A stretch of 42,002 nucleotides of DNA from Gammaproteobacteria bacterium. GTDB taxonomy: Bacteria > Pseudomonadota > Gammaproteobacteria > QZLD01. The position numbers were made by a program, and so were the translations under genes. Under the pieces are notes generated by a model. It did no database searches, was not told the DNA's origin, and was given only the letters and a program-made list of their open reading frames with translations. The stretch is from the NCBI GenBank assembly GCA_004796385.1, contig QZLD01000142.1:1-42002 (forward strand), given 5' to 3'. Position 1 is the stretch's first letter. Every line of letters starts with the position of its first letter. Positions 2 through 19,413 of this stretch are shown here, piece by piece.

Positions 2-931
2 AACTCCTTCTCTGGTGATAATGGTGGATTAGACTCCATGACTAATGATTTAAAAGAGCTTGGAGATTTTATTAACGCCATTGACTCCGGAGATGAAATA
101 GCAAAACAAAAGATTCACGATCTTAATAATCCGATAAATAAAATGTTGCGTTCATCAAAGCAACTGCCTCCTACTTTGGGAAACATGACCGCTCAAATTG
201 CTAATGATAGTAATAAAGTAGCCCAATCAAAAACTAAAGGAGATATTGAGGATGTTCTTAAAAGCCATGTTCATGAAGAGTACAGGGCAAAAATACGATT
301 TAGATATCCATTAAGCAGAAAATCCAGAAATGAAGTAACCCTTGCCGACTTTGGTGAATTTTTTGGTTATGGAGGCACAATGGAATCGTTTTTCGAGGAG
401 CATCTTAAACCAATAGTTAATACATCAAAAAGATACTGGAGCTGGAATGATGGAATCAAATACAGCGCAAAAACTTTAAGACAATTTCAAAGGGCGGATG
501 ATATTAAAAAAATTTTTTTTAAAAAAGACTCACGCACTCCCAAGATCAGGTTTTCGCTAAAACCAATCTCAATGAGTTCTCATGTAGAACAGTTCCTGTT
601 AGATCTTAATGGTCAAATTCTTACATATAAACATGGGGCTCAAATTGCCACAGCAATGGAATGGCCGGGAGAGATTCTTAATGGAAAAGTAAGAGTTGTC
701 TTCACTCCACTTGGAGGCGGCATACCGGCAGCTATAGAAAAATCAGGTACTTGGGCATGGTTTAGAATTCTGGACATGATGCTGGTACAAAGAACAAATA
801 GCTCAAATATTTATCATGTAACTTTTGACTTAAATGGCAGTAAAGCAACATTTGAACTAAGAGCAGAAAGTGCGGTAAATCCATTTGGAACAAACAATCT
901 GCGCCTTTTTAGATGCCCAGCAAAGATGTGA
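2..931 (+). CDS. tssM: Type VI secretion inner-membrane protein TssM (IcmF family), C-terminal part, truncated by window edge
   Basis: The reading frame is open from base 2, so the ATG listed at 38 is internal; about 309 residues of the C-terminus are present. TssM is the inner-membrane, periplasm-spanning component that with TssL and TssJ forms the T6SS membrane complex. The visible part corresponds to the periplasmic C-terminal domain: the stretch WPGEILNGKVRVVF followed by SGTWAWFRILD matches the family's usual pattern of a WPG motif, a beta strand and a 'G-W-FR-hydrophobic' segment. The protein ends seven bases before the tagF start, and tagF and a PP2C phosphatase follow on the same strand, which is a familiar T6SS gene order. 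The N-terminal membrane helices and the ATPase-like cytoplasmic domain must lie outside the window. The identity is supported by both motif and neighbours. Confidence 0.85.
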   Translation, partial: NSFSGDNGGLDSMTNDLKELGDFINAIDSGDEIAKQKIHDLNNPINKMLRSSKQLPPTLGNMTAQIANDSNKVAQSKTKGDIEDVLKSHVHEEYRAKIRFRYPLSRKSRNEVTLADFGEFFGYGGTMESFFEEHLKPIVNTSKRYWSWNDGIKYSAKTLRQFQRADDIKKIFFKKDSRTPKIRFSLKPISMSSHVEQFLLDLNGQILTYKHGAQIATAMEWPGEILNGKVRVVFTPLGGGIPAAIEKSGTWAWFRILDMMLVQRTNSSNIYHVTFDLNGSKATFELRAESAVNPFGTNNLRLFRCPAKM

Positions 932-938
932 GAAACTT

Positions 939-1688
939 ATGGAAGAAACACAAAACAGTAAAGTAGGATTATACGGAAAAATTCCGGGGCACGGTGATTT
1001 TGTCAGCCGCAACCTTGAAGATGAATTTATGGTTCCCTGGGATCAATGGCTGCAAAATGTTATCAGTGTCAGTCGGGAACAATTGGAAAACCTGTGGTTA
1101 CAAACATTTCTTACAAGTCCGATATGGCGCTTTTCCTTTGAAGGAGGTGCCTGCGGAGCTTATCCCATGACTGGAGTTATGATTCCCAGTGTTGATAAGG
1201 TTGGAAGATATTTCCCTTTCGTTTTGGCTGCGCCCATAACCAACTCTCCGCTGCACCACCTTATTAACGATGAAGAGTGGTATAACCATGCTGAAGATAT
1301 TCTGCTGGCAACACTAGAGAGTGATATTAAAGTTGATCAGGTATTGGAAATGACAGCTGCCATGCCGGAGTTATCGTCGGCAAAATTAACAGAAAGCAAT
1401 GCAATTCAAGTACACCACTCATTCGACACTCCCAAACATGCAAAAATGGTCTGGGGTGCATCAACAGCTGAGTTTGACTCTGTGAAAGATGCACTACCCG
1501 GATTTTTTGAAGTTGCACTAAATGAATTCTTTTCCCCATATTCTTTATGGTGGACTAATGGCTCTGAACAGATAGATAGATCACTGCTTGTATGTGACGG
1601 AATGCCACCACTTGCTGGATTTGCAGCCATGCTTGATGGAAATTGGGACCAGTGGGGCTGGCCCAGACATCAATTAATCAAATACTAA
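939..1688 (+). CDS. tagF: Type VI secretion accessory protein TagF
   Basis: A protein of 249 residues. The start at 939 (MEETQNSKVGLYGK) is preferred over the track start at 885, which would overlap tssM by 47 bases. The N-terminus GLYGKIPGHGDFVSRNL is the hallmark of the TagF/ImpM family: G-[KL]-P-GDF-R followed by a conserved 'W..WL' segment, here WDQWLQNVI. A central LTSPIWRFSF and a GVMIPSVDKVGRYFPF segment also fit the family. TagF proteins are cytoplasmic and in characterised systems act in post-translational control of T6SS firing, in the threonine-phosphorylation pathway or independently of it. The gene lies between tssM and a PP2C phosphatase, as in other T6SS loci, and all three are probably co-transcribed. 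No truncation or frameshift is seen. Confidence 0.87.
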   Translation: MEETQNSKVGLYGKIPGHGDFVSRNLEDEFMVPWDQWLQNVISVSREQLENLWLQTFLTSPIWRFSFEGGACGAYPMTGVMIPSVDKVGRYFPFVLAAPITNSPLHHLINDEEWYNHAEDILLATLESDIKVDQVLEMTAAMPELSSAKLTESNAIQVHHSFDTPKHAKMVWGASTAEFDSVKDALPGFFEVALNEFFSPYSLWWTNGSEQIDRSLLVCDGMPPLAGFAAMLDGNWDQWGWPRHQLIKY

Positions 1689-1703
1689 TAATTAGAGAGT
1701 TTT

Positions 1704-2441
1704 ATGTATACAACACAAATTGTAAGCCAACGCTGGATATCCTGTTCCAAAACGGATAAAGGCAATGTTCGCAAAATTAATGAAGATTCCATGCTTGATA
1801 TGCCTGCAAAAGGGCTGTGGGTAGTTGCTGATGGAATGGGAGGACACGAAGCAGGAGACCTTGCAAGCCAAACAGTTATAGATAAAATGGCTGAAATAGA
1901 TTCTGATGATCTTCTTTGCGACCATTACTACTACATAACAGAAGCTATTCAAACTGCAAATAGAGAAATACTGGAAGTATCGAAAAATAAATTCAATGGA
2001 GCCGTAATTGGCTCTACAGTGGTTATTCTGTATCTGCAAAATGATACTATCAACTTTCTCTGGGCAGGCGATAGTCGTGGTTATCTGCTAAGAGACAATA
2101 AATTAACACAAATAACTACAGATCACAGTGAAGTTCAGGAGCTGGTAGCAAGAGGACTTATTCCTAAAGAAGAAGCTGAAAACCATCCCCGAGCCAATGT
2201 TATTACCAGAGCTGTCGGCGCAGTAGAAGATCTTGATTTAGATAGCATTAGCTGCCGTTATCAACGGGGCGATATAATTTTGCTGTGTAGTGATGGACTG
2301 ATAAGAGATATTAACGATAATGAAATTGAAGAGATAATTAAATATAAAGATATTGATGACAGCTTGGAACGTCTCATGAAAACCTGTCTTGACAGAACAG
2401 CCGCGGACAATGTCACAATAATTTTAGTTAGGATATTGTAA
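1704..2441 (+). CDS. pppA: PP2C-family serine/threonine phosphatase, T6SS-associated (PppA-like)
   Basis: A protein of 245 residues, the usual length for a stand-alone bacterial PP2C. The metal-binding motifs appear in order: DKGNVRKINEDS near residue 20, VADGMGGHEAGDLAS near 45-60, WAGDSRGYLLR near 120, TRAVG near 170, LLCSDGL near 195 and DNVTIILVR at the C-terminus. In T6SS loci PppA dephosphorylates Fha or other targets of the kinase PpkA and so opposes kinase activation. It starts 15 bases after tagF, on the same strand, and AGAGAG precedes the ATG. Its stop lies two bases from the stop of the convergent membrane-protein gene, so it is probably the last gene of the T6SS transcript. No PpkA or Fha gene is in the window, so the T6SS role is inferred from position. 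Confidence 0.85.
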   Translation: MYTTQIVSQRWISCSKTDKGNVRKINEDSMLDMPAKGLWVVADGMGGHEAGDLASQTVIDKMAEIDSDDLLCDHYYYITEAIQTANREILEVSKNKFNGAVIGSTVVILYLQNDTINFLWAGDSRGYLLRDNKLTQITTDHSEVQELVARGLIPKEEAENHPRANVITRAVGAVEDLDLDSISCRYQRGDIILLCSDGLIRDINDNEIEEIIKYKDIDDSLERLMKTCLDRTAADNVTIILVRIL

Positions 2442-2443
2442 TT

Positions 2444-4261
2444 TTACAAACTGTTTATACCGTCTATCTTTACTGTTTTCCCAGTATCAGGAAGAGTAAA
2501 TTTCTTATATTTTCCTTTATCCTCAACCACATCCCAGTAATACCAAAGGTTTGTGCTACTGTTAATATCTTTAAAGCTATAGATTATTTCGGTTGGTTCA
2601 CTGTTTTCATTTACTGCAATCACTTCAATTGTCACATCAGGAAAAGATCTCTTATAACCTAACGAAATCAAATGCTTATAATTACTAAACAGTGTATCGC
2701 GTACAGCTACTGAATCAGTATAGATTTTCATTCCACTATCAATAGAAATTTTTAGTTTATTCTCATCTGTTCTTGTTATATCAATTGATTCGTAAGATGA
2801 AGTTAATATTCTGGCACTTTCAGGCAACTGCTTTTCAAAGTATGAAAATTGGTAAGGCAGATATAACCATTGGAAAGAGTGTGGTGAACTAATTAGATAA
2901 ACCCTTTTTTCAGATAAGTCCTGGCTAAGAAATATAATATCGGCATCATTATTTTTTTTCTTAACCATTCCCTGATACAGATAAACCGAAAGGCATAGCA
3001 ATGCTATAAATGAAATGAATATATTAAACCCCAGATAAACAACCTTATACGCCTTATACACACAACAATTTTTGTTTTGGTAATAATTAAAGGCAAGTAT
3101 AAAAAAACCGAACATCATTACCGAAACAAAGATCAGCAATCGCCCGCTTATCATTCCGATTGCAACCGGAGGAACTACACTAAAAAGTGCCCCAACAAGA
3201 AAGAACCTTGCCAGCTTTACCTCTTTAATAAACTGCCTGTTTAATATTAGCGTTAAAAGAAATATCGCAGCACCAATAACTGCATAAATGACCTTTGTTA
3301 AAGGAGAAAATAAATTATAGAGCATATCAACACCAGATATCTGATTAAGAATCAGTGCCGGCCCCCTTGTAAAAACCACCTCAACAAATCCTTTAAAATT
3401 TTTAATAGGATCAACATAAAGCCCATTATTTAATGCTCCATAATGACCACTCTGATAGCAGATCCTCCATAAAACAACTAATAAAAGATATGGAGCAAAG
3501 GTGATTATTTTCTTTTTAATTGATTCAGGTGAAATAAAAAGAATATACGCCATAATCAATCCTGCTGAACCTATACCGGCCTCTGCTGATAAGAGTGCAA
3601 GACCAAAAAAAACCAAACTTAGAATCCGGTTTTTCAAACTGTTTGTAAGAAGCATAAAATAAAAAGATAACAACCCAAATGAGCCTGCCATAAGTGCGTT
3701 ACGACTGGCGATCCATCCAAGGCTTTCATAAAGGCTTAAATCAACAACCAAAAACAACAAACCAAAGGCTGCCAATTTTTTTCCATTCATGGAGGTATCT
3801 TTAAACAGATGCTTAAATACCAAATATCCAGATAGTAGATAGAGCATAAACCAGAAAATACTGTGTAAGTGCATCATGGCTATTGAGTCAGGCCATAGCT
3901 TATAATCCAGCCAGTGACTTATTGATGCCAGTGGCCGCCAGAAACTCAGCTGTACCTCATCACTCCCCCACCACGGATATACCCCAATCTCTTTCATACG
4001 ATTAATATTGGTTCTGTCCTTTGGAAAAAATGAGAACAGGGTCATGGCTGCATCGGTAGCACCTATATCGCCATCTGCATTTTGAAAACCCAGTTGTTGC
4101 AACTGATGCGAACCTTTTAACGCCACATAGTGAAAATAATCATCAGCAGCAAGAGGAACCTTTATAGAGGACAAAGCGAAAAACAGAGCCAGAAAAAAAA
4201 GAAGCCATGGCTTACTTACAAACTTAATAAATAGCTGTGAAGTCTTATTAATTAAAGCCAT
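2444..4261 (-). CDS. Polytopic membrane protein, candidate GT-C-fold glycosyltransferase
   Basis: A protein of 605 residues with about ten predicted membrane helices in the first 430 residues (for example WLLFFLALFFALSSI, FWFMLYLLSGYLVF and IYAVIGAAIFLLTLIL), then a soluble C-terminal part of about 170 residues. Directly after the first helix comes LAADDYFHYVAL, an acidic pair in the first extracytoplasmic loop. This is where GT-C glycosyltransferases that use polyprenyl-phosphate sugars carry catalytic acidic residues. The gene lies 90 bases downstream of the HAD-UbiA gene in the same orientation, so it may transfer the lipid-linked pentose made by the three upstream enzymes. Pseudomonas pilin arabinosyltransferase TfpW is a known precedent for a GT-C enzyme beside DprE1/DprE2/UbiA homologues. 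I recognise no specific family; the GT-C call is inferred from topology, the acidic loop and context. It could be an O-antigen ligase-like or other membrane protein. Confidence 0.55.
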   Translation of the reverse strand: MALINKTSQLFIKFVSKPWLLFFLALFFALSSIKVPLAADDYFHYVALKGSHQLQQLGFQNADGDIGATDAAMTLFSFFPKDRTNINRMKEIGVYPWWGSDEVQLSFWRPLASISHWLDYKLWPDSIAMMHLHSIFWFMLYLLSGYLVFKHLFKDTSMNGKKLAAFGLLFLVVDLSLYESLGWIASRNALMAGSFGLLSFYFMLLTNSLKNRILSLVFFGLALLSAEAGIGSAGLIMAYILFISPESIKKKIITFAPYLLLVVLWRICYQSGHYGALNNGLYVDPIKNFKGFVEVVFTRGPALILNQISGVDMLYNLFSPLTKVIYAVIGAAIFLLTLILNRQFIKEVKLARFFLVGALFSVVPPVAIGMISGRLLIFVSVMMFGFFILAFNYYQNKNCCVYKAYKVVYLGFNIFISFIALLCLSVYLYQGMVKKKNNDADIIFLSQDLSEKRVYLISSPHSFQWLYLPYQFSYFEKQLPESARILTSSYESIDITRTDENKLKISIDSGMKIYTDSVAVRDTLFSNYKHLISLGYKRSFPDVTIEVIAVNENSEPTEIIYSFKDINSSTNLWYYWDVVEDKGKYKKFTLPDTGKTVKIDGINSL

Positions 4262-4351
4262 AATAGCAACAACCTATTTGTTAGAGCCTGATAGGCTGTC
4301 TCAATAAATAAAAAAGTAAAGTTAACTTACCAAAATAATTATCACTAATAC

Positions 4352-5803
4352 TTATAGTGCCTGAATCTGAATATAACTTTGGTTCGCCAAAGCCAAAAAT
4401 AATGCCGAGATAAGAGCTACAACCCAGCTACCCTTGTCTTTAATAGCGAAAACAATAGGGTCTTCGTGCATATTGCCTCTTGCTGTTATTAACCAGATTC
4501 TGCTTATCCAAAACAGTATCAAAGGGCAGATAAACCAGAGCATACCAGGGTTTTTATAAAGCTTTTCATCAAGGCTGTTTATATAAAGAGCAAATACCAA
4601 AACGGCAAGATAACCACTTGCCGTTCCCATACTATTGACTATAGTAAGATCCGAAACAGAATATCCCCTCCCCTTTGCCTGCTCTTTTTTACTATTAATA
4701 AGATTAATAAGCTCTGATGCTCTTTTAACCAGCGCCAAACTTAAAAATACAAACACGGAAAATGCCAAGAGCCAGAAACTAGGAGATATCTTACAAGCCG
4801 CAGCACCTGCAACTACCCTGCTTGTAAAAAGTCCGGCAAGAACTATTACATCAACCATTGGAAGAGTTTTTAATTTAAAGGAATAGATAAGTGTCGTGCC
4901 AATATAAATAGCAAGTACAACTGCAAATTTCCACGGAATAAAAAAGAGCATTATCATACTTAAAACAAATAGTAAAAACGCAATCATCAGTCCATGCAGG
5001 ATTGATATATCGCCGGATGCAAAGGCTCTTTTCTTTTTATAACTGTTGGCTCTGTCTGCATCCAGATCTAAAAGATCATTTACAACATATGTTGCCGATG
5101 CACATAGGCCAAAACAGACGAAAGCCAAAAGCGCACTAATCACAAGAGGAGTCTGACTGAATTCGTGAGATGCCAGTAGTGGCACAAAAATCAAGGCATT
5201 TTTGGTCCACTGATGAATTCTGATAGCCTTAAGATACTTTTTTATGCTCGCCGTCTTTCTATCAAAAATGAGCTCAACTTCGCAGCTTTTTTTGGCAATC
5301 TCTATTGTTCCAGGCTTGGCATTAACAACAATAGCCTTTCTTGATATCTCCCATATATGGCCATCTTTCGCCTCATTTCCTGCGTAGTCGAAATTTCTTT
5401 TACCATAGGTCTTTTCCAGATACTCCGCCTTATTTCTTCCGGTAAGATTTACTGCATCATCTGTTGAAACAACACCACTGAATATTCCCAGATAATCAGC
5501 TATCTTCTCAGCATATTTCTTATAACTGCCGGTAACCAAAACCAGTTCACGCTTTTCGCCGAACTGAGCCTTCAGATATTCTAAAAATTCATAATCGTAA
5601 GGAAGATTTTCGACATCTATTTCAGAACGGTTTGCAAGCTCTCTTTTAAGATGCTGTTTACCCTGCATTAACCAGAAAGGCACCATAAAAACAATGTAAA
5701 GATGCCTTTTAAATGCCCTGACAAATGACTCAAGCATAATATCGCTACGAATCAGTGTGCCATCAAGATCGACACACAAAGGAATATTCGGCTTTTGTGA
5801 CAT
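4352..5803 (-). CDS. HAD phosphatase-UbiA prenyltransferase fusion (decaprenyl-phosphate phosphoribosyltransferase type)
   Basis: A protein of 483 residues. The start at 5803 (MSQKPNIPLCVDLDG) is preferred: AAGG lies eight bases upstream and this avoids overlap with the preceding gene. The N-terminal third is a HAD hydrolase, with motif I CVDLDGTLIRSD, motif II LVTGSYKKYA and a late GNEAKDGHIWE acidic motif. The C-terminal two thirds is a UbiA membrane prenyltransferase with about eight helices; NDLLDLDADRANSYKKKR is the first Asp-rich motif, and DVIVLAGLFTSRVVAGAA matches the second conserved region of the mycobacterial Rv3806c type. That enzyme joins PRPP to polyprenyl phosphate, and the fused HAD domain could remove the 5-phosphate from the product. 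The two downstream steps match the dprE1-like and dprE2-like genes encoded immediately upstream. The substrate assignment is inference; other UbiA acceptors are possible. Confidence 0.8.
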   Translation of the reverse strand: MSQKPNIPLCVDLDGTLIRSDIMLESFVRAFKRHLYIVFMVPFWLMQGKQHLKRELANRSEIDVENLPYDYEFLEYLKAQFGEKRELVLVTGSYKKYAEKIADYLGIFSGVVSTDDAVNLTGRNKAEYLEKTYGKRNFDYAGNEAKDGHIWEISRKAIVVNAKPGTIEIAKKSCEVELIFDRKTASIKKYLKAIRIHQWTKNALIFVPLLASHEFSQTPLVISALLAFVCFGLCASATYVVNDLLDLDADRANSYKKKRAFASGDISILHGLMIAFLLFVLSMIMLFFIPWKFAVVLAIYIGTTLIYSFKLKTLPMVDVIVLAGLFTSRVVAGAAACKISPSFWLLAFSVFVFLSLALVKRASELINLINSKKEQAKGRGYSVSDLTIVNSMGTASGYLAVLVFALYINSLDEKLYKNPGMLWFICPLILFWISRIWLITARGNMHEDPIVFAIKDKGSWVVALISALFLALANQSYIQIQAL

Positions 5804-5816
5804 TACATGAACCTTA

Positions 5817-6554
5817 TTATAATTTTGTTTTTTTGAATACAAATTCAGGAATAGAGGTAATAACCATCATTACACAGCGCCAAAACCATTTAGTATATAT
5901 GGTGTTTTTTCTTTTCTGCTGAGCCTTAACTATATCTCTGGCAACCTCTTCAGGCTCGGCAGTTAGTTTTGCAGGCAAATCCATTCCTTCAGTCATTCTG
6001 GTATTCACAAACCCGGGTTTTACTGTAACTACATGAACACCGCTTGCATAAAGACGATGGCGCAAGCCAGAAAGATAGGCTGTAAGACCTGCCTTAGCAC
6101 TTCCATACAGGTAGTTGCTCTGCCGTCCCCTGTCTCCTGCAACAGATGACACACCTACAATAAATCCACTCTTTTTGCTCTCATAATCGTTGGCTATAAC
6201 ATTTAGCAGAGAAACTGCTCCAACATAGTTGGTATTTATAATTCTTTGTGTCTCTTCAAAATCCGCCTGCGCCTTTATCTGATCTCCCAGATACCCGATG
6301 AACAACAGCGTACCTTCAGGTTTTGGATCGAGTTTTTCGTAAAAATCAGCATGGGATGCAAAATCCACTGCATCAACCTCGACTGTTTCAGCTTCAATAT
6401 TGTATTTTACCTTCAAGTCTGTGGCGGTTGCTTCGGCCTCTTCCTTTTCCTGCGCTCTGGTTGCCAAATAGAGGCTTTTTCCCTGTTTAGCATATTCTGC
6501 AGCCACTGCCTTAGCGATATCCGACGCTGCTCCTAATATCAATATATATGACAT
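5817..6554 (-). CDS. dprE2: Short-chain dehydrogenase, DprE2-like (polyprenylphosphoryl-2-keto-ribose reductase)
   Basis: A protein of 245 residues, the common SDR length. It starts with a Rossmann fold (ILILGAASDIAKAVAAEYAK) in which the usual TGxxxGIG is GAASDIA, the form found in DprE2. The catalytic Ser is in VGVSSVAGDRG and the YxxxK pair in NYLYGSAKAGL. DprE2 with DprE1 epimerises polyprenylphosphoryl-ribose to the arabinose form: DprE1 oxidises C2 and DprE2 reduces the keto intermediate with NADH. The gene starts one base after the dprE1-like stop and ends 13 bases before the HAD-UbiA start, so the three are almost certainly translated from one mRNA. The C-terminus is basic and hydrophobic (FWRCVMMVITSIPEFVF), as in family members that stay near the membrane. 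The specific substrate is inferred from the partners. Confidence 0.82.
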   Translation of the reverse strand: MSYILILGAASDIAKAVAAEYAKQGKSLYLATRAQEKEEAEATATDLKVKYNIEAETVEVDAVDFASHADFYEKLDPKPEGTLLFIGYLGDQIKAQADFEETQRIINTNYVGAVSLLNVIANDYESKKSGFIVGVSSVAGDRGRQSNYLYGSAKAGLTAYLSGLRHRLYASGVHVVTVKPGFVNTRMTEGMDLPAKLTAEPEEVARDIVKAQQKRKNTIYTKWFWRCVMMVITSIPEFVFKKTKL

Positions 6555-6555
6555 A

Positions 6556-7878
6556 TTAAATCCCTACTCTCTTTGATTGTAATGAGGCGAACCTGTTATC
6601 AGGATCATATTTATGTTTTAGCTCCTTAAACCTTTCTGCATAAGGATATCCGGCAAGCATTTTTGGCTCCATTCTTACGTCTTTTGCAAAATAGAGACGC
6701 CCGCCATAGTCAAGCACCAAGTCATCAAGCTCGTCCAACAATTTGAAAAGACCGTTTTTAATTGGAAAATCAAGCGCCAGCGTGTAACCCTCTTTCGGAA
6801 ATGAGAAGAGGTCATCCTGCTGCCCAAACAGTTTCAATACTGCAAGAAAAGACCCCTGACCACTCTCAGCTATTCTGGAAAGCACCTTTCCAAGCCCTTC
6901 TCTGCCTGCATCTTTCGGCAATACAAACTGATATTGTGTAAAACCGCGCTTGCCGTAAATTCTGTTCCAGTTCAAAACTCCATCCAGAGGATAGAAAAAC
7001 TGATCATAATCTACTATTGAAACCTTGCTTTCCTTTGGCCCCTTCATGTAATAAAGAGCATTAAATGCCTTTACTGTCAATGGGTTAAGCGCAAAAGATG
7101 GAAAGTTTATCGGAACATTTAATTTGAGTTTTTTAGGAAGAATCAATGGCGCTCTGCGATGCTTGATTTTAACCAGTTCATTTTCACCGGCATGCTCTCC
7201 ACGCATCATCAGAGAGCGCCCCATATTTTCACCCTGCATAAGACAGTCAATCCAGGCTACAGAGTATGTCCAGTCATCTGAGTCTTCAAATACATCCATT
7301 ATTTCAGATAAATTTTTTGCCTTGATCATCTCTTGGCGTATAAAAGCTGTTTCAACACGAATCAAATTCATGGATACTCGCAGTATATAGCCTGTAAGCC
7401 CCATACCTCCTGCGGTTGCTTCAAACAGTTCGGAGTTTTCATCCTTGCTACATCTGACTACCTCACCTGAGGCAAGCATAATCTCCATCCAGTTAACGTG
7501 GTGGCAGAATGATCCTGAAAGATGGTGATTTTTTCCGTGGACATTTGAGGCTATAGCACCGCCAACTGTTACAAATTTTGTACCGGGAGTTGTCGGCAAA
7601 AACCAACCTCGAGAGACAAATACATCAAGAATATCCTCAAGAGAAACACCGGATTCACAAACAAGTTCACCACTCTCCTCATCAAAGCTGATCATACGAT
7701 TAAAACGCAGTGAGGAAACAACAGTTTGTGACAGAGAGCTGTCTCCATAACACCGACCTAACCCCCTCGGAATAACCTCTTTGGCTTCGGATATAATTTT
7801 AGATAACTTACCTTCATTTACGAAAGACCTGAAATCAACATCCACTTCGGGGTAATTCCCCCAGTTCGATAGCTTCAT
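6556..7878 (-). CDS. dprE1: FAD-linked oxidoreductase, DprE1-like (polyprenylphosphoryl-ribose 2-oxidase)
   Basis: A protein of 440 residues, close to mycobacterial DprE1. The vanillyl-alcohol-oxidase-type FAD domain shows RGLGRCYGDSSL near residue 40, PGTKFVTVGGAIASNVHGKN near 97-117 and GGMGLTGYILRV near 155. The C-terminal part has WNRIYGKRGFTQYQFVLP, LDFPIKNG and GGRLYFAKDVR, where the Lys in FAKD (about residue 399) matches the essential DprE1 lysine. It oxidises the C2 hydroxyl of polyprenylphosphoryl-ribofuranose; the DprE2-like product finishes the epimerisation. In DprE1 the residue targeted by benzothiazinones is a Cys in a WNICVDFPI context; here the aligned segment is YTLALDFPI, with Ala. 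It is the first gene of the putative four-gene transcript, with a 268-base intergenic region upstream. Confidence 0.87.
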   Translation of the reverse strand: MKLSNWGNYPEVDVDFRSFVNEGKLSKIISEAKEVIPRGLGRCYGDSSLSQTVVSSLRFNRMISFDEESGELVCESGVSLEDILDVFVSRGWFLPTTPGTKFVTVGGAIASNVHGKNHHLSGSFCHHVNWMEIMLASGEVVRCSKDENSELFEATAGGMGLTGYILRVSMNLIRVETAFIRQEMIKAKNLSEIMDVFEDSDDWTYSVAWIDCLMQGENMGRSLMMRGEHAGENELVKIKHRRAPLILPKKLKLNVPINFPSFALNPLTVKAFNALYYMKGPKESKVSIVDYDQFFYPLDGVLNWNRIYGKRGFTQYQFVLPKDAGREGLGKVLSRIAESGQGSFLAVLKLFGQQDDLFSFPKEGYTLALDFPIKNGLFKLLDELDDLVLDYGGRLYFAKDVRMEPKMLAGYPYAERFKELKHKYDPDNRFASLQSKRVGI

Positions 7879-8146
7879 AACTTTAATTTCCCGAATTTAA
7901 CACACATAGAACCTTTAAAATAAATCTATAACAGCAAATTTGATTGCATTAATCTCAAACAACTTCGTCCTTTGCGCTTTATTATTTTTTTAGAAAAGCT
8001 TATTTATACTAAATATGTTCAATAGTTGCAGAACTTCCTAATTACAACAAAACAGCTAACTATTAGCAAGAGCAGACAGCCATTTTACTATATAAAAAAA
8101 CACGCCATATTTCAGGCGTGTTTTTTATTCAAAATTTTCGAACATG
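7879..8146. other. Intergenic region between rpoS and the dprE1-like gene
   Basis: A 268-base AT-rich gap. It contains the rpoS terminator (8094-8126) and must also hold the promoter of the dprE1-dprE2-UbiA-GT-C transcript, because both flanking genes are on the minus strand. I could not find a convincing -35/-10 pair. No small ORF or RNA gene is evident. Confidence 0.6.
8094..8126 (-). terminator. Rho-independent terminator of rpoS
   Basis: The sequence AAAAAACACGCC, an eight-base loop and GGCGTGTTTTTT form a GC-rich six-base-pair stem that extends to twelve pairs through flanking A and T tracts. It sits about 20 bases past the rpoS stop. The A/T tracts make it potentially bidirectional, but only rpoS is transcribed into it. 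Confidence 0.9.
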
Positions 8147-9259
8147 CTAACCAAAAATTATCTCTTCTGAAAATCCGGTTCTTTCTAAAACTTCTCTAAG
8201 TTTCTTAAGAGCATCAATCTGAATCTGCCTAACTCTCTCTCTGGTAACTCCAATTTCATTACCAACCTCTTCAAGCGTCGATTTTGGATAACCATGAAGT
8301 CCGAATCTTCGTTCAATTACAGAGCGCTGTTTTTCATTGAGTTGATCCAGCCACTCTTCAATATGCCCCATAATGTCATCATCCTGAAGAATTCTTGATG
8401 GATCTGGATTGCTTTCATCTGCAATTGAATCTACAAGTGATCTCTCTGCATCCTTTCCTACCGGAGTATCCACCGAAGCTATTCTCTCATTAAGACCAAG
8501 CATTTTTTTAACTTCTTCAGCAGGCTTATCCAATACCTCTGCAATTTCTTCTGCCGTAGGTTCGTGATCAAGATTTTGGGCTAATTTGCGGGAAGTTCTA
8601 AGAAAGGAATTTATCTCTTTTATGACGTGGATAGGAAGCCTTATGGTTCTGGTCTGATTCATTATCGCCCGTTCAATTGTTTGACGAATCCACCAAGTGG
8701 CATATGTGGAAAATCTAAAACCTCTTTCCGGATCAAATTTTTCAACCGCTCTAATAAGTCCTAAATTCCCCTCTTCTATAAGATCAAGTAACGGCAACCC
8801 TCGATTCATATAACGACGGGCAATTTTAACAACCAACCGTAGATTGCTCTCTATCATTCTCTTTCGCCCAGACTCTACTCCCTTTTGAGCAAGTCTCGAA
8901 TAATAAACTTCTTCCTCTGCTGATAACAGAGGTGAAAAACCAATTTCACCAAGATACATGCGGGTCGCATCGAGCCCTCCATCAGCAAAGGCATCGTCTT
9001 CATTTCTTGTTCTTGCTGTTATGGCGTTACTGCTCTCTTCCGACGAATCATCTTCACTACTATTATCTACATCAGAGGCATCCAGCATGCTCTCTTCATC
9101 GGCAATATCACCTTTTTTTGCCTTCTTTTTTCTTTTTTTGGCATTTGCTGATTTTTTTCCGGGAATATCGTTACCAATCACAACTTCGCTATCGGCTTCA
9201 GTAACAACAGTTGAGTCATCCCATTCCGCTTCTGGCTTAACCACACACTTCTTGGCCAT
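8147..9259 (-). CDS. rpoS: RNA polymerase sigma factor RpoS (sigma-38)
   Basis: A protein of 370 residues. The start at 9259 (MAKKCVV) is chosen because AGGAG lies seven bases upstream; the track's upstream start has no such site. Conserved sigma regions appear in order: region 1.2 [16 protein letters not shown] near residue 98, region 2 with [20 protein letters not shown] and [20 protein letters not shown], region 3 with [18 protein letters not shown], and region 4 with [15 protein letters not shown] and [20 protein letters not shown]. It lacks region 1.1, as RpoS does, and lies directly downstream of nlpD, the classical arrangement. RpoS directs general stress and stationary-phase transcription. 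The N-terminus is about 45 residues longer than in E. coli RpoS and is low-complexity: a Lys-rich run, then an acidic Ser/Asp-rich run. Confidence 0.95.
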
Positions 9260-9328
9260 AACACATCTCCTTTGCATTAATTGTCAGAATGTTTCATCGG
9301 CAGATTAGGTTTTACCTTTAATCGACCT

Positions 9329-10093
9329 TCACTTTTGTTTAAATCCCTTTTTAGGTAAATACCTAATTGGATCAACCGGTTTTCCATTGCGGCGGATCTC
9401 AAAATGGAGTCTTGCATTACCTTCGTTATCAACTCCCATCTTTGCTATCTTTTGACCTGCTTTTACGCTATCACCCTCTCCAACCAAAAGAACAGAGTTA
9501 TAACCATAAGCTGTCAAAAACTCTTCGCTGTGTTTTACTATCAATAGTTTTCCATAACCTATCAGACCGCTACCGCTATACACAACTTTTCCTGATCGGG
9601 ATGCGTATACTGATTGTCCTTTTTTCCCGGTTATGTCAATGCCCTTGCTTCCAGTAATACCAGTATTGAAAAGCCTTGCCACTCGACCAATAGTAGGCCA
9701 TCTCCATGAAGAAAGAACTGTGACCTGATCCTCATTTTTGCTTTTTTCAATATTTTTTTTGCGATTTATTTTATTTTTCTTATCTTTAACTTTTTCTTTT
9801 GCTCGCATATTGTTGTTTTTATTGAATTTTAAGCACCTCCTTATATACAGCAACTGACGAGGATAAATTGTGTACGGACTACTGATACCATTACACGCTG
9901 CAAGTTTTTGCAGGTTAATATCATATCTCCAAGATAAAGAGTATAAAGTATCCCCTTTTTCCACTCTGTAAGCCTGTGGCCTGTATGTTCGATTTTCAGT
10001 ACTACGCTTTCTATAACTAGAACAAGATGAAACCAACAATAGGCAAAGCAGAATCAAAAAGTAACTGGCTGATTTTTTCCCTATCACTCTCAT
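9329..10093 (-). CDS. nlpD: NlpD-type lipoprotein: LysM plus degenerate LytM (M23) domain
   Basis: A protein of 254 residues. A lipoprotein signal peptide ends in the lipobox VSSC (Cys near residue 24). A LysM peptidoglycan-binding domain follows (YRVEKGDTLYSLSWRYDINLQKLA), then a Lys-rich linker and a C-terminal M23/LytM domain (GIDITGKKGQSVYASRSGKVVYSG ... LHFEIRRNGKPVDPIRYL). In active M23 enzymes the first metal ligand is His in HxGxD; here it is SKGID, and the second motif is LHFEIR. The site is therefore incomplete, as in NlpD proteins that activate the amidase AmiC instead of cutting peptidoglycan. It lies 69 bases upstream of rpoS, and in E. coli the main rpoS promoter lies inside nlpD. 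AGGA directly abuts the ATG, so a GTG two codons later (10087) is a possible better-spaced start. Confidence 0.9.
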   Translation of the reverse strand: MRVIGKKSASYFLILLCLLLVSSCSSYRKRSTENRTYRPQAYRVEKGDTLYSLSWRYDINLQKLAACNGISSPYTIYPRQLLYIRRCLKFNKNNNMRAKEKVKDKKNKINRKKNIEKSKNEDQVTVLSSWRWPTIGRVARLFNTGITGSKGIDITGKKGQSVYASRSGKVVYSGSGLIGYGKLLIVKHSEEFLTAYGYNSVLLVGEGDSVKAGQKIAKMGVDNEGNARLHFEIRRNGKPVDPIRYLPKKGFKQK

Positions 10094-10223
10094 TCCTAAA
10101 AAACATTTGCTAATTGGATTTGCTATAACACCAAGAACCTTATCATATTGTTACAAAGAATGGGATTATTCCATTTTTAATCTACACTTATGCTGAGTAC
10201 TGTTAATTTTCCGGGCATTAAGA

Positions 10224-11684
10224 ATGGATAAGATAAAACCGATAGATTTGTGGATACGCAATATTGTTGACAGGGAACTTCCTGCAATGGGGTTCACTGT
10301 AAAAACCATTTGTGAACTTCTTGCTAAAAGAACTTCAACTGCAAATGATATCGCCAATACAATACTAAAAGACCCTGGGATGACCTCTACTCTTTTGAGA
10401 GTAGCAAATAGTGCTTATTACAATACAGGAGGATCTGAAATAACCACTGTAAGCAGAGCTGTGGTTCTTTTAGGATCGCAGGCAATAAGAAACTTAAGCC
10501 TTTCAGTATCCGTAATGGAAAATGTTATCAAAGGTGCAAAAAAAGACCGCCAGCTTCAGCTATTAGCCAAGTCAATGTTTGCCGCTACCCAAGCGAAATC
10601 ACTTGCAATTAAAAGAAATCATCCTCATCCTGAAGAGGTATTTATTGCTACTCTTCTTTATCATCTTGGGGAAATGACTTTCTGGTGTGTTGATTCAAGA
10701 GAGGCTCTTGCGCTGGATAAAGCGCTATCGAACCCCCGTATTCCTAGGGCAGTTGCAGAAAAAGAGATTCTCGGATTCAGATTCGCGCAATTAACCCATG
10801 CCCTGTCATATGAATGGAATCTTGGGGATGCTTTGCGCGAAGCTTTAATCTTCAGCGATGGCAGAAACGGTGAAGCAGATGCCAGAAATATTGTTCTGAG
10901 CCACCAGATAGAAAACGCCTCCAGAAACGGCATAGAATCGCCAATAATGAACTGGGTATGCAAACGCACTTCCGACTTCATCCAAAAACCTGTGGATGAG
11001 GTCAAAACCATTGTTACCACTACTGCTGAAACAGCACAAGAAACGGCCGATGAAATGGGGGTTGACCTGAAATGGCGTGTAAAACCTGAAAAAGATCTGA
11101 TTAAAGTCAGCAGAGAATATAATGATAGAGCTTCTTCAGTATCAAGAGATGTTCAGAATCAGATCAGCTCTGAAATTGACAAAATGATACCCAGCAAGCC
11201 TGATGTTCAGCTTATCCTAAGAATGATAATTGAGGGAATTCAACGCGGTGGGAACATGGATAGAACTTTATTGGCAATTCTTACACCGGACAGAAATAAA
11301 CTGATTGTAAAATATCAACTTGGTGATGAATCATCAGTTTTCTGCAAAAAATTTGATTTCCCTCTGGAAAATAACAGCATGAGACTTTTCCCGTTCATTA
11401 TGAGGCAGATTAAAAGACCTGTATGGATAAGTAAAAATAATGCGGGAGGCATTGATAAAATGATAACCACTGAAATTCGTAACCTTACAGAAGGAAACGA
11501 TTTCCTTGTTGCGCCTTTAATTATTGATGATAAAGATATCGGAATGATCTATTCCGACAGAGGAATAAGTAAATCTCAAATGGATAGGGAAGCTTTTGAA
11601 AATTTCTGTAGATTCGCACAGCAAGCAAATACCTGCTTACACAGGATTCATGAATCACCGCTAAAGCCTTATTTAACAAGCTAA
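10224..11684 (+). CDS. HDOD-domain signalling protein with C-terminal GAF-like region
   Basis: A protein of 486 residues. Residues 10-210 form an HDOD domain: LPAMGFTVKTICELLAKRTS, DPGMTSTLLRVANSAYYN, VSRAVVLLGSQAIRNLSLS and an HLGEM segment in the central helix, which lacks the HD pair of active HD phosphohydrolases. Residues 330-480 look like a GAF-type sensor domain (MIIEGIQRGGNMDRTLLAIL ... LVAPLIIDDKDIGMIYSDRG). Proteins with this layout occur in gammaproteobacteria as stress or cyclic-di-GMP-linked regulators of unknown mechanism. The gene diverges from nlpD across 130 bases and is convergent with the 142-residue hypothetical protein, whose stop is four bases away. Its ligand and partner cannot be inferred from the sequence. 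Confidence 0.8.
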   Translation: MDKIKPIDLWIRNIVDRELPAMGFTVKTICELLAKRTSTANDIANTILKDPGMTSTLLRVANSAYYNTGGSEITTVSRAVVLLGSQAIRNLSLSVSVMENVIKGAKKDRQLQLLAKSMFAATQAKSLAIKRNHPHPEEVFIATLLYHLGEMTFWCVDSREALALDKALSNPRIPRAVAEKEILGFRFAQLTHALSYEWNLGDALREALIFSDGRNGEADARNIVLSHQIENASRNGIESPIMNWVCKRTSDFIQKPVDEVKTIVTTTAETAQETADEMGVDLKWRVKPEKDLIKVSREYNDRASSVSRDVQNQISSEIDKMIPSKPDVQLILRMIIEGIQRGGNMDRTLLAILTPDRNKLIVKYQLGDESSVFCKKFDFPLENNSMRLFPFIMRQIKRPVWISKNNAGGIDKMITTEIRNLTEGNDFLVAPLIIDDKDIGMIYSDRGISKSQMDREAFENFCRFAQQANTCLHRIHESPLKPYLTS

Positions 11685-11688
11685 AAGA

Positions 11689-12117
11689 TCAAAGGTTAGC
11701 TGCTATCTCAATCTCGCAGTCCTTGACCCACTTAACGGATTCGTCACTTAAAATGAATGGCATTTCACCTCCATCAAGCATCAACCCATCAACTTTTTCA
11801 CACAAAACTCCAGCAGCAATTACTGAAGTAATATATTGGCAATAATCATTATAAGTAATCAGCACTATTGCGTTTTTGCGGTCACCTACAATTTTAAGGT
11901 CTGAAGCGTCTAATTCTGAAATATCAATCTCGTCAAAATAGCACTCAAAACCACCTTTTTTGCCCTTATAACTGCATTTTACAAAACCATCTACAGTTAG
12001 TGGATCAAAGTCGATTTCAAGCTCAGCATCAAATCCGCTCGCTTTAATCGCCTTTGCCCACTCTTGCGCTGTTATCATTTTCTCCTTATTAAGGAGAACT
12101 ACATTTTCAACCGACAT
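11689..12117 (-). CDS. Hypothetical protein, third gene of the ratA-rnfH transcript
   Basis: A protein of 142 residues with no signal peptide or membrane helix. I do not recognise the family. It is acidic, with Asp/Glu-rich stretches such as ELEIDFDPLTVDGF and CYFDEIDISELDASDLK, and has three Cys residues spread along its length. The start is well supported by AGGGA five bases upstream of the ATG. It begins eight bases after rnfH and shares its orientation, so it is co-translated with the RatA and RnfH homologues. Its stop lies four bases from the convergent HDOD gene, and a short AGCTAA...TTAGCT inverted repeat spans the two stops. A cytoplasmic accessory role is all that context allows. Confidence 0.7.
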   Translation of the reverse strand: MSVENVVLLNKEKMITAQEWAKAIKASGFDAELEIDFDPLTVDGFVKCSYKGKKGGFECYFDEIDISELDASDLKIVGDRKNAIVLITYNDYCQYITSVIAAGVLCEKVDGLMLDGGEMPFILSDESVKWVKDCEIEIAANL

Positions 12118-12125
12118 TCAATTCC

Positions 12126-12452
12126 CTATGATTCTGCAGCTGACGCAGCTTCAGCCTTTGCCTTATCTCTCTCGGCCTTCTCTTTTCTGGCTGTTTTCGG
12201 ATCAACCTGAAGAGGCCTTAATATCTCAATTCTATCCCACTCATTAAGAACAGTATCCGCTTTTGCCTTTTTTCCAAAAATAGAAACAGCATGTTTATTA
12301 AGATCTACTTCCGGGTAACGTTTGTAAACACCGGACATTTCGACCGCATCCTCAAGCTTTGTTCCTTCAGGAACTGCAACCTCAAGTATTGCTTGCTGAT
12401 CAACCGATCTGGCGTATGCAACCTCTACCTTTATCTTTTTTACTTCAGTCAT
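12126..12452 (-). CDS. rnfH: RnfH family (UPF0125) ubiquitin-like protein
   Basis: A protein of 108 residues. It begins MTEVKKIKVEVAYAR and contains EVAVPEGTKLEDAVEMSGV, VDLNKHAVSIFGKKAKADT and DRIEILRPLQVDPKTARKEKA, the well-known RnfH/RatB pattern with the C-terminal RPL-DPK-R signature. The fold is beta-grasp, like ThiS and MoaD. The function is uncertain: it was named from rnf clusters but usually follows ratA, as here. The C-terminus is a charged Ala/Lys/Glu-rich tail. It overlaps the end of ratA by eight bases, so the two are translationally coupled. Confidence 0.92.
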   Translation of the reverse strand: MTEVKKIKVEVAYARSVDQQAILEVAVPEGTKLEDAVEMSGVYKRYPEVDLNKHAVSIFGKKAKADTVLNEWDRIEILRPLQVDPKTARKEKAERDKAKAEAASAAES

Positions 12453-12873
12453 ATATTTCTCCAGCTCTTTTTACAAATGCCTTCACCATAGTATTGGCAG
12501 CATGATTAAAAACCATTCCGAAAACCCGTTTAATTAAACCGCTTGAATATTCATATTCAAGTCTTAGGCTTACTTTGCAGGCGTGATCATCAAGAGCAAA
12601 AAAGCGCCACTCTCCGGTAAGGGAGGAAAAAGGGCCTTCAACAAGTTTAAGCCTTATATAATGCCCTTTTTTTCGATTATTTACTGTTGAAAAAGACTCA
12701 TTAATCCCACCTTTCTGAATTCCGATTCTGGCAAACATATCATTACCATCAATATTCAGAACCTCGCTGGCTTTACACCAAGGCAGAAATAACTTATATG
12801 ATTCAACATCATCCACCATCTCAAACATCTGTTCTGCTGAATATGGAACTAATTGACTCTTTTCTACAATCAT
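12445..12873 (-). CDS. ratA: RatA-type SRPBCC (START-like) protein
   Basis: A protein of 142 residues, the family length. It begins MIVEKSQLVPYSAEQMFEMV, followed by DDVESYKLFLPWCKASEV, a FSTVNN segment and a SSLTGEWRFFAL segment, all typical of the coenzyme Q-binding/RatA family (E. coli YfjG, yeast Coq10). These proteins bind hydrophobic ligands such as ubiquinone; E. coli RatA was also reported to block 70S ribosome assembly when overproduced. Its stop overlaps the rnfH start by eight bases, and a good sigma-70 promoter lies just upstream (12902-12930). In many gammaproteobacteria smpB lies next to ratA; it is not here. Confidence 0.92.
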   Translation of the reverse strand: MIVEKSQLVPYSAEQMFEMVDDVESYKLFLPWCKASEVLNIDGNDMFARIGIQKGGINESFSTVNNRKKGHYIRLKLVEGPFSSLTGEWRFFALDDHACKVSLRLEYEYSSGLIKRVFGMVFNHAANTMVKAFVKRAGEIYD

Positions 12874-12901
12874 CCAAGACTGCCCGCTAAAAAACCGAGT
12901 G

Positions 12902-12930
12902 ATTATACCTTACGATAGTATTGTAACCAA
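12902..12930 (-). promoter_or_regulatory. Candidate sigma-70 promoter of ratA-rnfH
   Basis: On the minus strand TTGGTT, a 17-base spacer and TATAAT (a perfect -10 box) end about 28 bases before the ratA ATG. This gives a leader of roughly 20 bases. It would drive the ratA-rnfH-hypothetical transcript. Confidence 0.55.
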
Positions 12931-13000
12931 GTAGCAACCATAGGCGATAACCTGAAAATAAAAATTCTTACGATGGAAATTAAAAATCTGCCTGGGGCAT

Positions 13001-13603
13001 TTATGGCTTTTTCTTATGCTCTCTGATTTTATCCAGCTCTTTCTCAAGACAATCCGGACAAAGACCATGAGAAAACCCCATCCCCCACTCTTTATTAAAA
13101 TATTGTTCCAGTTTCTGCAAAGCCTGGTCTCCATTACGAATCACTTTACATCTGGAACAGATTGGAATCAGCTTATTTATCTCCGCAATCTCTTCAAAGT
13201 CCTCCATTATTAATATTACAAAATCGTCTCCATTGTATTTAAAAGGCGCTGTTGTAATTAATAAAAACACTTCGGTTATCTCGCCATTTTTTAATAGATC
13301 CATTCTGGTTCTTTTTCTATTAATCGTATTTCCTGAAAGTGTAGCCTTTACAGAGTTTCTGATATCGCAATATTTACACTGCTCTGATGTTCCACAACCT
13401 CCGCTTGAGTTATGATGATGGTAACAATCAAAAGCATCACCACCCCGCTTACCCTCAATAGTTTCAAACCAATAATGAGTAACTGATAACCCCGAACGAT
13501 TACCAAAGAGAATTTCTGCATTTTCATCTATAACAAAGACCATTGCAGGCATCGAGTTAAATACTGCCCCAAGCAGATCTGCCGTATAGATATTATCTTT
13601 CAT
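13001..13603 (-). CDS. Stand-alone PAS-domain protein with two cysteine clusters
   Basis: A protein of 200 residues if started at 13603 (MKDNIYTADLLGAVF); the track start lies inside the upstream gene. A PAS domain covers about residues 10-140, beginning FNSMPAMVFVIDENAEILFGN. Inside it lies a Cys/His-rich insert, FDCYHHHNSSGGCGTSEQCKYC, of a kind seen in PAS domains that could bind metal or an iron-sulfur cluster. The C-terminus has a second cluster, LIPICSRCKVIRNGD ... FSHGLCPDCLEKE, which matches the LP-C-CKKIR ... SHG-CP-C signature usually found downstream of PAS domains in histidine kinases. No kinase, GGDEF or DNA-binding output domain is present. It is separated by five bases from the exported START-like gene and is the last gene of the long XrtA-linked transcript. 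A redox or metal-sensing adaptor role is inference. Confidence 0.75.
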   Translation of the reverse strand: MKDNIYTADLLGAVFNSMPAMVFVIDENAEILFGNRSGLSVTHYWFETIEGKRGGDAFDCYHHHNSSGGCGTSEQCKYCDIRNSVKATLSGNTINRKRTRMDLLKNGEITEVFLLITTAPFKYNGDDFVILIMEDFEEIAEINKLIPICSRCKVIRNGDQALQKLEQYFNKEWGMGFSHGLCPDCLEKELDKIREHKKKP

Positions 13604-13608
13604 ATTAT

Positions 13609-14229
13609 TTATTCTGTTTTTTTGCTTAAATACCTTCTGGTATTTGTTAATACTTTGGGAATGCTCTCTTCTGTAAAATAATCTACTATCCACCCCAGCC
13701 CAAAAGGAATCTCCCCCGGGTCGGTAAAAACATAATAGGTAACGATAATTCCATCATTAACTCTTTTGTCTTTTTCAAACTTCCAATAACCTATTGTGTT
13801 ATCTATAGATTGTAGTTTCGGCACCTCCGGCCAATCAATCATCTTCCAGCTTATCTGTGCGTCGCTATCTTTTTTATTAAGCTTAAACAAAAGACGATAT
13901 TTTTTAACCTTCCCCAGAGGAAGCCCTATAGTGTTATCTGTTGTTATTACGCCATCTTCTCTTTTGTTTACTATTATACTTTTCAGATCAGGCATAAATT
14001 CCGGGTGGGTTTTGAAATCGGTAAGGATATTAAAAATAGTGTCTATATCGGTTTTAAAAATTGCTATCGCTATATATGTACGGCTATTTTGTCCACCGCT
14101 ATATTCATTAGCCTGCTGTTTTATTATTATTTCGCCTTGCTTAAGTTTTTTTATTTCTGAATCAGTCACAACACTTGCGTAACTTATAACATTAAAAAAT
14201 ATAAGCATTAAGAAAATATTAATCCGCAT
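13609..14229 (-). CDS. Exported SRPBCC/START-like lipid-binding-type protein
   Basis: A protein of 206 residues with an N-terminal signal peptide (MRINIFLMLIFFNVISYASV). The mature part resembles START/polyketide-cyclase-like proteins: IAIAIFKTDIDTIFNILTDF, HPEFMPDLKSIIV, an ISWKMIDWPEV segment, YWKFEKDK and the late GWIVDYFTEESIPKVLTNTRR, a helix typical of the SRPBCC C-terminus. Such periplasmic proteins are suspected of binding hydrophobic ligands, but no ligand can be named. It lies 10 bases after the MTI phosphorylase gene and 5 bases before the PAS gene, so it is probably co-transcribed with both and with the XrtA genes upstream. Confidence 0.75.
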   Translation of the reverse strand: MRINIFLMLIFFNVISYASVVTDSEIKKLKQGEIIIKQQANEYSGGQNSRTYIAIAIFKTDIDTIFNILTDFKTHPEFMPDLKSIIVNKREDGVITTDNTIGLPLGKVKKYRLLFKLNKKDSDAQISWKMIDWPEVPKLQSIDNTIGYWKFEKDKRVNDGIIVTYYVFTDPGEIPFGLGWIVDYFTEESIPKVLTNTRRYLSKKTE

Positions 14230-14239
14230 ATTAAACGCT

Positions 14240-14980
14240 CTATATCTGCTCTACAACATGCTCGAGCAATACTTTAACATTCTGCATTCCCTCATCAAGA
14301 TTACGGTTTATCTCTTCCATGGTTATCTCTTCCTGGGTGATTCCTGCAGCCCAATTTGCCATTACCACACAGGCTGCATATGACATATCTAATTCTCTTG
14401 CAAGAGATGCTTCAGGCATTCCTGTCATCCCGACAATATCACAACCATCCTGCTGCATTCTTTTTATTTCTGCCATTGTTTCAAGACGAGGGCCTTGGGT
14501 TGCACCATAAGTTCCACCGCCTCCATACTCAATATTTGCGCCCTCGGCTGCTTTTATCAAAAGTTTTCTCAAACCAGATGAATAGGGATAGGTAAAATCG
14601 ATATGGGTTACATGATCAAGGTCAGATTCAAAAAATGTCTGCTTGCGCGAATGGGTGTAATCAATTATCTGATCCGGAAAAGCTATCATTCCGGGCTTAT
14701 ATTCAGGTTTCATTGTTCCTACTGCCGCGATAGCAAGTATTCTTTTTGCTCCAATATTGTTTAATGCCCAAATATTTGCCCGATAATTTACCATATGCGG
14801 CGGTATGGTATGCCCTACCCCATGCCTTGCTAAAAACGCTATTTTTTTACCACAAAGCTCTCCATGCACAATCGGTGCAGAAACTTCTCCATATGGGGTA
14901 TGTACCACCTCTCTACGAACTATATTCAGGGTTTCCAAGGTGGTTAATCCTGTTCCGCCTATTATTGCAAGATCTGTCAT
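14240..14980 (-). CDS. S-methyl-5'-thioinosine phosphorylase (PNP/MTAP family)
   Basis: A protein of 246 residues. The start at 14980 (MTDLAIIGGTGL) has AAGGAAG upstream; the track start would add 11 residues with no site of its own. The family motifs are IIGGTGLTTLE, a phosphate-binding FLARHGVGHTIPPHMVNYRA, ATQGPRLETMAEIKRM and VGMTGMPEASLARELDM. The base-recognition segment VVMANWAAGI carries Asn where adenine-specific MTA phosphorylases carry Asp, which favours a 6-oxopurine substrate. In Pseudomonas this enzyme phosphorolyses methylthioinosine to hypoxanthine and methylthioribose-1-phosphate, salvaging polyamine-synthesis by-products after MTA deamination. It starts 25 bases after the FemAB gene. 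The substrate call rests on the Asn and on the family; a general PNP is the alternative. Confidence 0.85.
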   Translation of the reverse strand: MTDLAIIGGTGLTTLETLNIVRREVVHTPYGEVSAPIVHGELCGKKIAFLARHGVGHTIPPHMVNYRANIWALNNIGAKRILAIAAVGTMKPEYKPGMIAFPDQIIDYTHSRKQTFFESDLDHVTHIDFTYPYSSGLRKLLIKAAEGANIEYGGGGTYGATQGPRLETMAEIKRMQQDGCDIVGMTGMPEASLARELDMSYAACVVMANWAAGITQEEITMEEINRNLDEGMQNVKVLLEHVVEQI

Positions 14981-15005
14981 TATGCTTCCTTTCTTTATAT
15001 CTTTT

Positions 15006-16085: not shown

Positions 16086-16106
16086 AAATTCTCCATTGAC
16101 TTGCGA

Positions 16107-16994: not shown

Positions 16995-16996
16995 AT

Positions 16997-18136: not shown

Positions 18137-18230
18137 TATTTTTCCTTCTGCTCTCTTTTAGTAAATTTTAAAGAGCTGAGTTTATCCTCTTTTTATTACG
18201 TTATTTTTTCTTTTATTAATTGAATTTCGT

Positions 18231-19376: not shown

Positions 19377-19413
19377 AGCTACACCACTCACAATAGGATA
19401 AAGATGAAATATT

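Follow-up and report, generated by a model that had tools for sequence, protein, structure and literature searches.

Background

Lipid-carried arabinose is a wall building block of tuberculosis bacteria, the pathway that makes the arabinose donor is a proven tuberculosis drug target, and few Gram-negative transferases that spend this donor are characterized. Biochemical work on Citrobacter showed that a HAD-UbiA fusion produces polyprenyl-phosphate-ribofuranose (Kelly et al. 2024, PMC11127046); this three-component pathway further comprises a flippase and GT136, a GT-C enzyme that accepts ribose and xylose donors; systems of known structure that bear arabinofuranose (Araf) have DprE1/E2 homologs (PMC11127046). 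In Pseudomonas paraeruginosa, a related donor is used for pilin arabinosylation by TfpW (PMC12369383, PMC11841053). Here we describe a four-gene set of a Gammaproteobacteria bacterium (lineage QZLD01), located on contig QZLD01000142.1 (GCA_004796385.1); the window is the whole 42,002-nt stretch analyzed. We think it fairly likely that the four gene products synthesize a lipid-linked pentofuranose and spend it, the last of them, a GT-C protein termed P0001, transferring D-Araf to a periplasmic acceptor.

A four-gene set with operon-like layout

The four open reading frames (ORFs) share the minus strand, run from DprE1-like through DprE2-like and UbiA-type to the 605-residue membrane protein P0001, and are separated by gaps of 1, 13 and 90 bases, exactly as an earlier reading of this DNA (the original prediction) had it. 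On the coding strand, the 90-base gap before the P0001 gene contains neither a promoter-like nor a terminator-like site. The genes, with the predicted domains and the candidate catalytic site, are as follows.

6556-7878, minus strand: DprE1-like FAD oxidase of polyprenyl-phosphate-ribofuranose, 440 aa (NF053785 and DprE1 crystal structures)
5817-6554, minus strand: DprE2-like short-chain reductase, 245 aa (PRK07102, NF053786)
4352-5803, minus strand: HAD-UbiA fusion, polyprenyl-phosphate 5-phosphoribosyltransferase and 5'-phosphatase, 483 aa (NF006088, PDB 8j8j)
5435-5782, minus strand: HAD phosphatase domain of the fusion, residues 8-123 (Pfam PF12710, E 3e-7, residues 12-123; DxDGT at residues 12-16)
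4478-5179, minus strand: UbiA phosphoribosyltransferase domain of the fusion, Pfam stretch 209-442 (PF01040, E 2e-22)
2444-4261, minus strand: GT-C-fold membrane protein P0001, candidate pentofuranosyltransferase with a beta-rich C-terminal domain, 605 aa (AlphaFold/Foldseek)
4139-4144, minus strand: D40-D41 of P0001, acidic pair that follows directly on the first transmembrane helix and may act as catalytic base (identical in all 8 aligned sequences)

Donor enzymes

Profile searches upheld, far beyond chance, the identities that the original prediction had assigned to the first three products. DprE1 crystal structures match the first of them with E 2e-80 in a PDB search; against the DprE1 equivalog NF053785 it scores 421.9 bits, under the curated cut-off of 500, and it is therefore called DprE1-like, not a DprE1 equivalog. 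Its HGKNHH motif (residues 114-119) and K399, at the position of Lys418 of Mycobacterium tuberculosis, are retained by no fewer than 92% of the 22 proteins compared. Ala368 stands where mycobacteria have Cys387, the residue bound by benzothiazinone drugs, and the same 22 DprE1-like proteins keep Ala at this position in at least 92% of cases, so that covalent benzothiazinones would not be expected to act on enzymes of this kind. PF04030 (ALO), used as a DprE1 marker in the source genome, gave no matches, the model being too weak.

The DprE2-like protein reaches 346.8 bits against PRK07102 (SDR equivalog; cut-off 267) and 195.7 bits against NF053786 (DprE2 equivalog), the latter below the curated cut-off of 250; its residues S137, Y150 and K154 are conserved in 19 compared proteins. 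Together, the DprE1-like and DprE2-like genes would provide the epimerase component that three-component systems need for Araf.

The UbiA-type protein scores 626.4 bits against PRK08238/NF006088 over residues 3-474, passing the cut-off of 351, and decaprenyl-phosphate phosphoribosyltransferase profiles begin to align at residue 187. At E <= 0.1, the UbiA domain has only two relatives in the PDB, both mycobacterial decaprenyl-phosphate phosphoribosyltransferase (8j8j, E 6e-24), which places it among the phosphoribosyl enzymes, as had been proposed. The motif residues of NDLLDLDADR (ND..D...DR) and DLDGT (D12/D14) are conserved across 35 compared proteins. The fused HAD domain, overlooked in the original prediction, probably supplies the 5'-phosphatase step, and the fusion would thereby represent both the phosphoribosyltransferase and the phosphatase component of a three-component pentofuranose system. 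The ATG at 5803 was taken as the start of this ORF, in agreement with the family profile; an alternative in-frame TTG start at 5842 (ORF 4352-5842) would overlap the DprE2-like gene. Enzyme families, the domain fusion, catalytic motifs and the operon-like layout can all be read from the sequence itself.

The 605-residue membrane protein

P0001 has no Pfam, NCBIfam or PDB sequence match, and the GT136 model is absent from its family matches. A profile of the P0001 family (A1) retrieved no PDB chain at E <= 1, and hence no detectable sequence similarity to Aft/Emb enzymes; one homolog weakly matches PMT_2, and for the membrane core of P0001 a profile comparison with a TMTC-like TPR protein (L003) points to a distant relationship (94% probability).

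AlphaFold models of P0001 (pLDDT 72, pTM 0.72) and of its homolog from the gammaproteobacterial metagenome-assembled genome (MAG) L080 (pLDDT 69, pTM 0.74) both show about a dozen long helices followed by the beta-rich C-terminal domain. In Foldseek searches against the PDB, the top places for P0001 are all GT-C enzymes, with the AftA arabinosyltransferase first and then OST/STT3, PglB and ArnT; for the L080 homolog, OST, PglB and ArnT are on top, with EmbA/EmbB and AftA lower down. These matches agree with the GT-C-like character that had been predicted. Their Foldseek probability is 1.00 and their TM-scores are only about 0.25-0.40, so the models support a GT-C fold as a class and not a specific arabinosyltransferase subtype.

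Across 8 aligned sequences of the P0001 family, D40, D41, W97, W98, R109, P110, E227 and R374 are invariant. The modeled P0001 appears to combine the many transmembrane helices and the acidic motif in the first periplasmic loop that mark the GT-C superfamily. Its gene shares the strand of the donor trio and follows it after 90 bases, and P0001 would thus be the GT-C component of the set. The pair D40-D41 occupies the place of the catalytic acid residue in GT-C enzymes, which in ORF12 of Citrobacter is D31 (PMC11127046).

Homologs and co-occurrence with the donor pathway

Homologs of P0001 were found in eight other genomes from four bacterial groups. Those of L080, two planctomycete MAGs (L081 and L083) and a Chloroflexi MAG (L082) share 20-31% identity over most of the length, that of a deltaproteobacterial MAG (L084) aligns over part of it, and three further gammaproteobacterial genomes (G129, G435 and G756) also carry a homolog. 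All eight encode a DPPRS-type UbiA (158-661 bits against NF006088), which passes a curated phosphoribosyltransferase or HAD-UbiA cut-off in seven and is cut by the end of the fetched stretch or contig in the eighth; six also have a DprE1-like protein scoring 243 bits or more. As a background, about 84 of 369 gammaproteobacterial genomes reach 150 bits for DPPRS-type UbiA, and all four gammaproteobacteria with a P0001 homolog have it (chance p about 0.003). Weak matches to profile A1 (G290, G414, G528 and about 15 others), mostly covering the shared GT-C/TMTC-like core, were excluded from this count. The relative G001 has neither a P0001 homolog nor a DPPRS-type match; the source genome's own family and order hold just two genomes. 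No copy was found on plasmids. The co-occurrence gives moderate support to the use of polyprenyl-phosphate-pentofuranose donors by the P0001 family.

In L080, the homolog (9965-11836) lies between two nonribosomal peptide synthetase (NRPS) genes on the same strand (563-9817 and 12327-21812), each of them matched by 4 condensation and 2 adenylation domains, and the same genome also encodes HAD-UbiA, DprE1 and DprE2. A pentofuranosylated peptide is a possible product of this cluster, and the L080 member would then attach pentofuranose to a peptide natural product in the periplasm. We tentatively suggest that P0001 belongs to a probably undescribed GT-C family of polyprenyl-phosphate-pentofuranose transferases whose acceptors vary by host and whose members occur in Gammaproteobacteria, Planctomycetota, Chloroflexota and one deltaproteobacterium. 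If so, the enzyme family would be new, with a small number of residues open to testing, and the presence of the phosphoribosyl donor enzyme could guide the search for further pentofuranose transferases and glycans.

The donor module in other genomes

The HAD-UbiA model cut-off is passed in 44 of the 369 gammaproteobacterial genomes. Of the 33 loci examined, DprE1- and DprE2-like genes are both nearby in 16, frequently together with a large gene for a multi-helix membrane protein; a membrane gene of the GtrA-like or PF03706-like kind is present in 9. In locus L041, DprE1, DprE2 and HAD-UbiA genes are followed by a GT-C-like gene in the same order as in the window, with a GtrA-family gene in front. 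Compared with the P0001 profile, the GT-C-like neighbors of the trio in L041 and L097 proved unrelated. Because the trio recurs in many loci while the GT-C-like gene of L041 differs in sequence, the general pattern is a donor module combined with a variable membrane transferase. Large multi-helix membrane proteins at L097:13016-14527 and L041:1853-3481, beside DprE1/E2/UbiA trios, have no Pfam transferase match, and this donor module may serve several unnamed families of membrane proteins.

An arrangement of the donor trio with a GT-C enzyme has been published (PMC11127046, PMC12369383) and is not rare, with examples in many gammaproteobacterial loci. The claim that the system as a whole was undescribed therefore holds for the transferase and fails for the donor part, which is known and common; the new element is an unnamed GT-C family tied to the donor pathway by co-occurrence.

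Membrane proteins of the PF03706 family (LPG_synthase_TM) repeatedly adjoin the phosphoribosyltransferase gene and once the GT-C homolog, and are candidates for a flippase or another helper for the lipid-linked pentose. They are located at:

L096:8271-9224
L100:10122-11081
L068:3474-4445
L048:9922-10953
L079:11442-12422

Proposed reaction and alternative explanations

The best reading is that P0001 is a periplasmic pentofuranosyltransferase, and probably a D-arabinosyltransferase. For the sugar, the reaction of P0001 and its acceptor, we infer the following route. The UbiA domain would join phosphoribosyl pyrophosphate to undecaprenyl phosphate, giving polyprenyl-phosphate-ribose-5-phosphate, from which the HAD domain would strip the 5'-phosphate; the DprE1-like enzyme would then oxidize C2 to a keto sugar, which the DprE2-like enzyme would reduce to polyprenyl-phosphate-D-Araf. 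These steps would all take place on the cytoplasmic face. After some flippase had turned the donor over, P0001 would transfer D-Araf to a periplasmic acceptor, with the Asp-Asp pair after the first membrane helix acting as base. The acceptor would most likely be a surface polysaccharide or another secreted glycan.

Several observations weigh against this route. Both the DprE1-like and the DprE2-like proteins score under their curated equivalog cut-offs, and the two planctomycete MAGs carry the GT-C homolog without DprE1. TM-scores reach at most 0.40, with pLDDT at about 70. The gene set contains no flippase of the MATE, SMR or GtrA type expected in a three-component system, and searches of the 85%-complete source genome with GtrA (PF04138) and PF03706 were empty, MATE and SMR not being searched. 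In the stretches fetched around the P0001 homologs, no DprE1 or UbiA gene was seen, two of the contigs being only 7 kb long; the link between the GT-C protein and the donor therefore rests on one adjacency plus co-occurrence. The gammaproteobacterial part of the co-occurrence sample is small, at four genomes, two of which share a family, the background rate covers Gammaproteobacteria only, and genome size is not controlled, large genomes tending to hold more glycan genes.

The missing linkage in other genomes also favors an alternative that we regard as unlikely but worth weighing, in which the trio makes polyprenyl-phosphate-Araf while P0001 uses another polyprenyl-phosphate sugar, such as a hexose, and lies next to the trio only by coincidence; the actual arabinosyltransferase would then be encoded at another place in the genome. 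The distant TMTC likeness of its membrane core would fit, as the eukaryotic TMTC group uses dolichyl-phosphate-mannose, and some genomes with homologs have a different GT-C-like gene directly beside the trio (e.g., L097 and L100). However, the phosphoribosyl donor enzyme accompanies the homologs in eight of eight genomes, and P0001 is encoded on the same strand as the trio across a 90-base gap free of promoter-like and terminator-like sites.

Arabinosylation of pilin or another protein, as by TfpW of P. paraeruginosa, would be a sub-case of the D-Araf transfer proposed above, with a protein as acceptor. The same class of donor pathway is coupled there to a GT-C enzyme (PMC12369383, PMC11841053), and the fold matches of P0001 include protein glycosyltransferases of the OST family; these OST matches, however, mirror the general GT-C fold, the annotated ORFs of the window include no pilin gene, and one homolog belongs to an NRPS cluster while others come from phyla whose envelopes differ. 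We consider this sub-case improbable, and the preference for a protein over a polysaccharide acceptor found no support.

Least probable of all, and in our view quite unlikely, is that the sugar which the module produces and hands on is D-ribose or another pentofuranose epimer, with the DprE1/DprE2-like proteins acting at another position: their scores under the cut-offs, the planctomycete genomes without DprE1, whose family members may accept ribofuranose, and the use of ribose and xylose donors by the Citrobacter GT-C enzyme would fit, but the catalytic and substrate-region motifs of DprE1 are retained and systems of known structure with DprE1/E2 homologs carry Araf (PMC11127046).

Genomic surroundings

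Upstream of the four-gene set, nlpD and rpoS lie on the same strand, with a 268-base gap between rpoS and the dprE1-like gene. This gap holds one promoter-like site, which is weak, since such sites are no commoner in the region than in shuffled sequence:

8087-8115, minus strand: promoter-like site upstream of the dprE1-like gene (CTGAAA-17-TATAGT, 9/12 matches)

On the other side, type VI secretion system (T6SS) genes (TssM C-terminus, TagF and an Stp1-like phosphatase; 38-2441) lie on the opposite strand, and the last of them ends 2 bases from the stop of the P0001 gene. The reported T6SS adjacency is thus real but gives no functional link: the strands converge and housekeeping rpoS lies on the other side, so the T6SS was ruled out as a functional partner and its adjacency looks incidental. 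Base composition gave no clear signal of horizontal import, as the mean of the window, 37.3% GC, falls inside the range spanned by the genes (35.5-42.1%).

Further along, at 14240-20802 on the minus strand, the window contains exopolysaccharide genes of the XrtA/PEP-CTERM-associated type (FemAB-like protein, polysaccharide deacetylase, WecB-like epimerase, ATPase and outer membrane protein TIGR03016). The exopolysaccharide of this cluster is a candidate acceptor, though only a lead, with housekeeping genes lying between.

Comparison with described systems

The set resembles the Citrobacter youngae O1/O2 three-component system (GT136; PMC11127046) in uniting a HAD-UbiA enzyme making polyprenyl-phosphate-ribofuranose, an auxiliary epimerase and a GT-C transferase. 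It differs in using a DprE1/E2 pair where Citrobacter has a single SDR epimerase, and in having no flippase gene in the set, a GT-C protein without family match and no surrounding O-antigen cluster.

With the mycobacterial decaprenyl-phosphate-arabinose pathway (Rv3806c, Rv3807c, DprE1 and DprE2, followed by Aft/Emb GT-C enzymes), it shares the donor chemistry and homologous donor enzymes, and AftA is the top fold match of P0001. In contrast, the phosphatase is a fused HAD domain here and Rv3807c there, an undecaprenyl carrier is expected, P0001 lacks sequence similarity to Aft/Emb, and Ala368 replaces Cys387.

The D-Araf pilin glycosylation system of P. paraeruginosa (PSPA7_6245-6251 and TfpW; PMC12369383, PMC11841053) is likewise Gram-negative and combines a polyprenyl-phosphate-D-Araf donor with a GT-C transferase. 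There, the TfpW gene lies beside pilA and the phosphatase is separate, whereas here the candidate transferase is encoded in the donor set, with no pilin gene near, and the phosphatase is fused.

Finally, P0001 and the TMTC-like/PMT-like GT-C proteins have in common a motif region around FWRPL..HWLDY..W and GWIA.RN (profile comparison 94%); unlike these proteins, P0001 has no TPR repeats, possesses a beta-rich C-terminal domain and co-occurs with phosphoribosyl donor enzymes.

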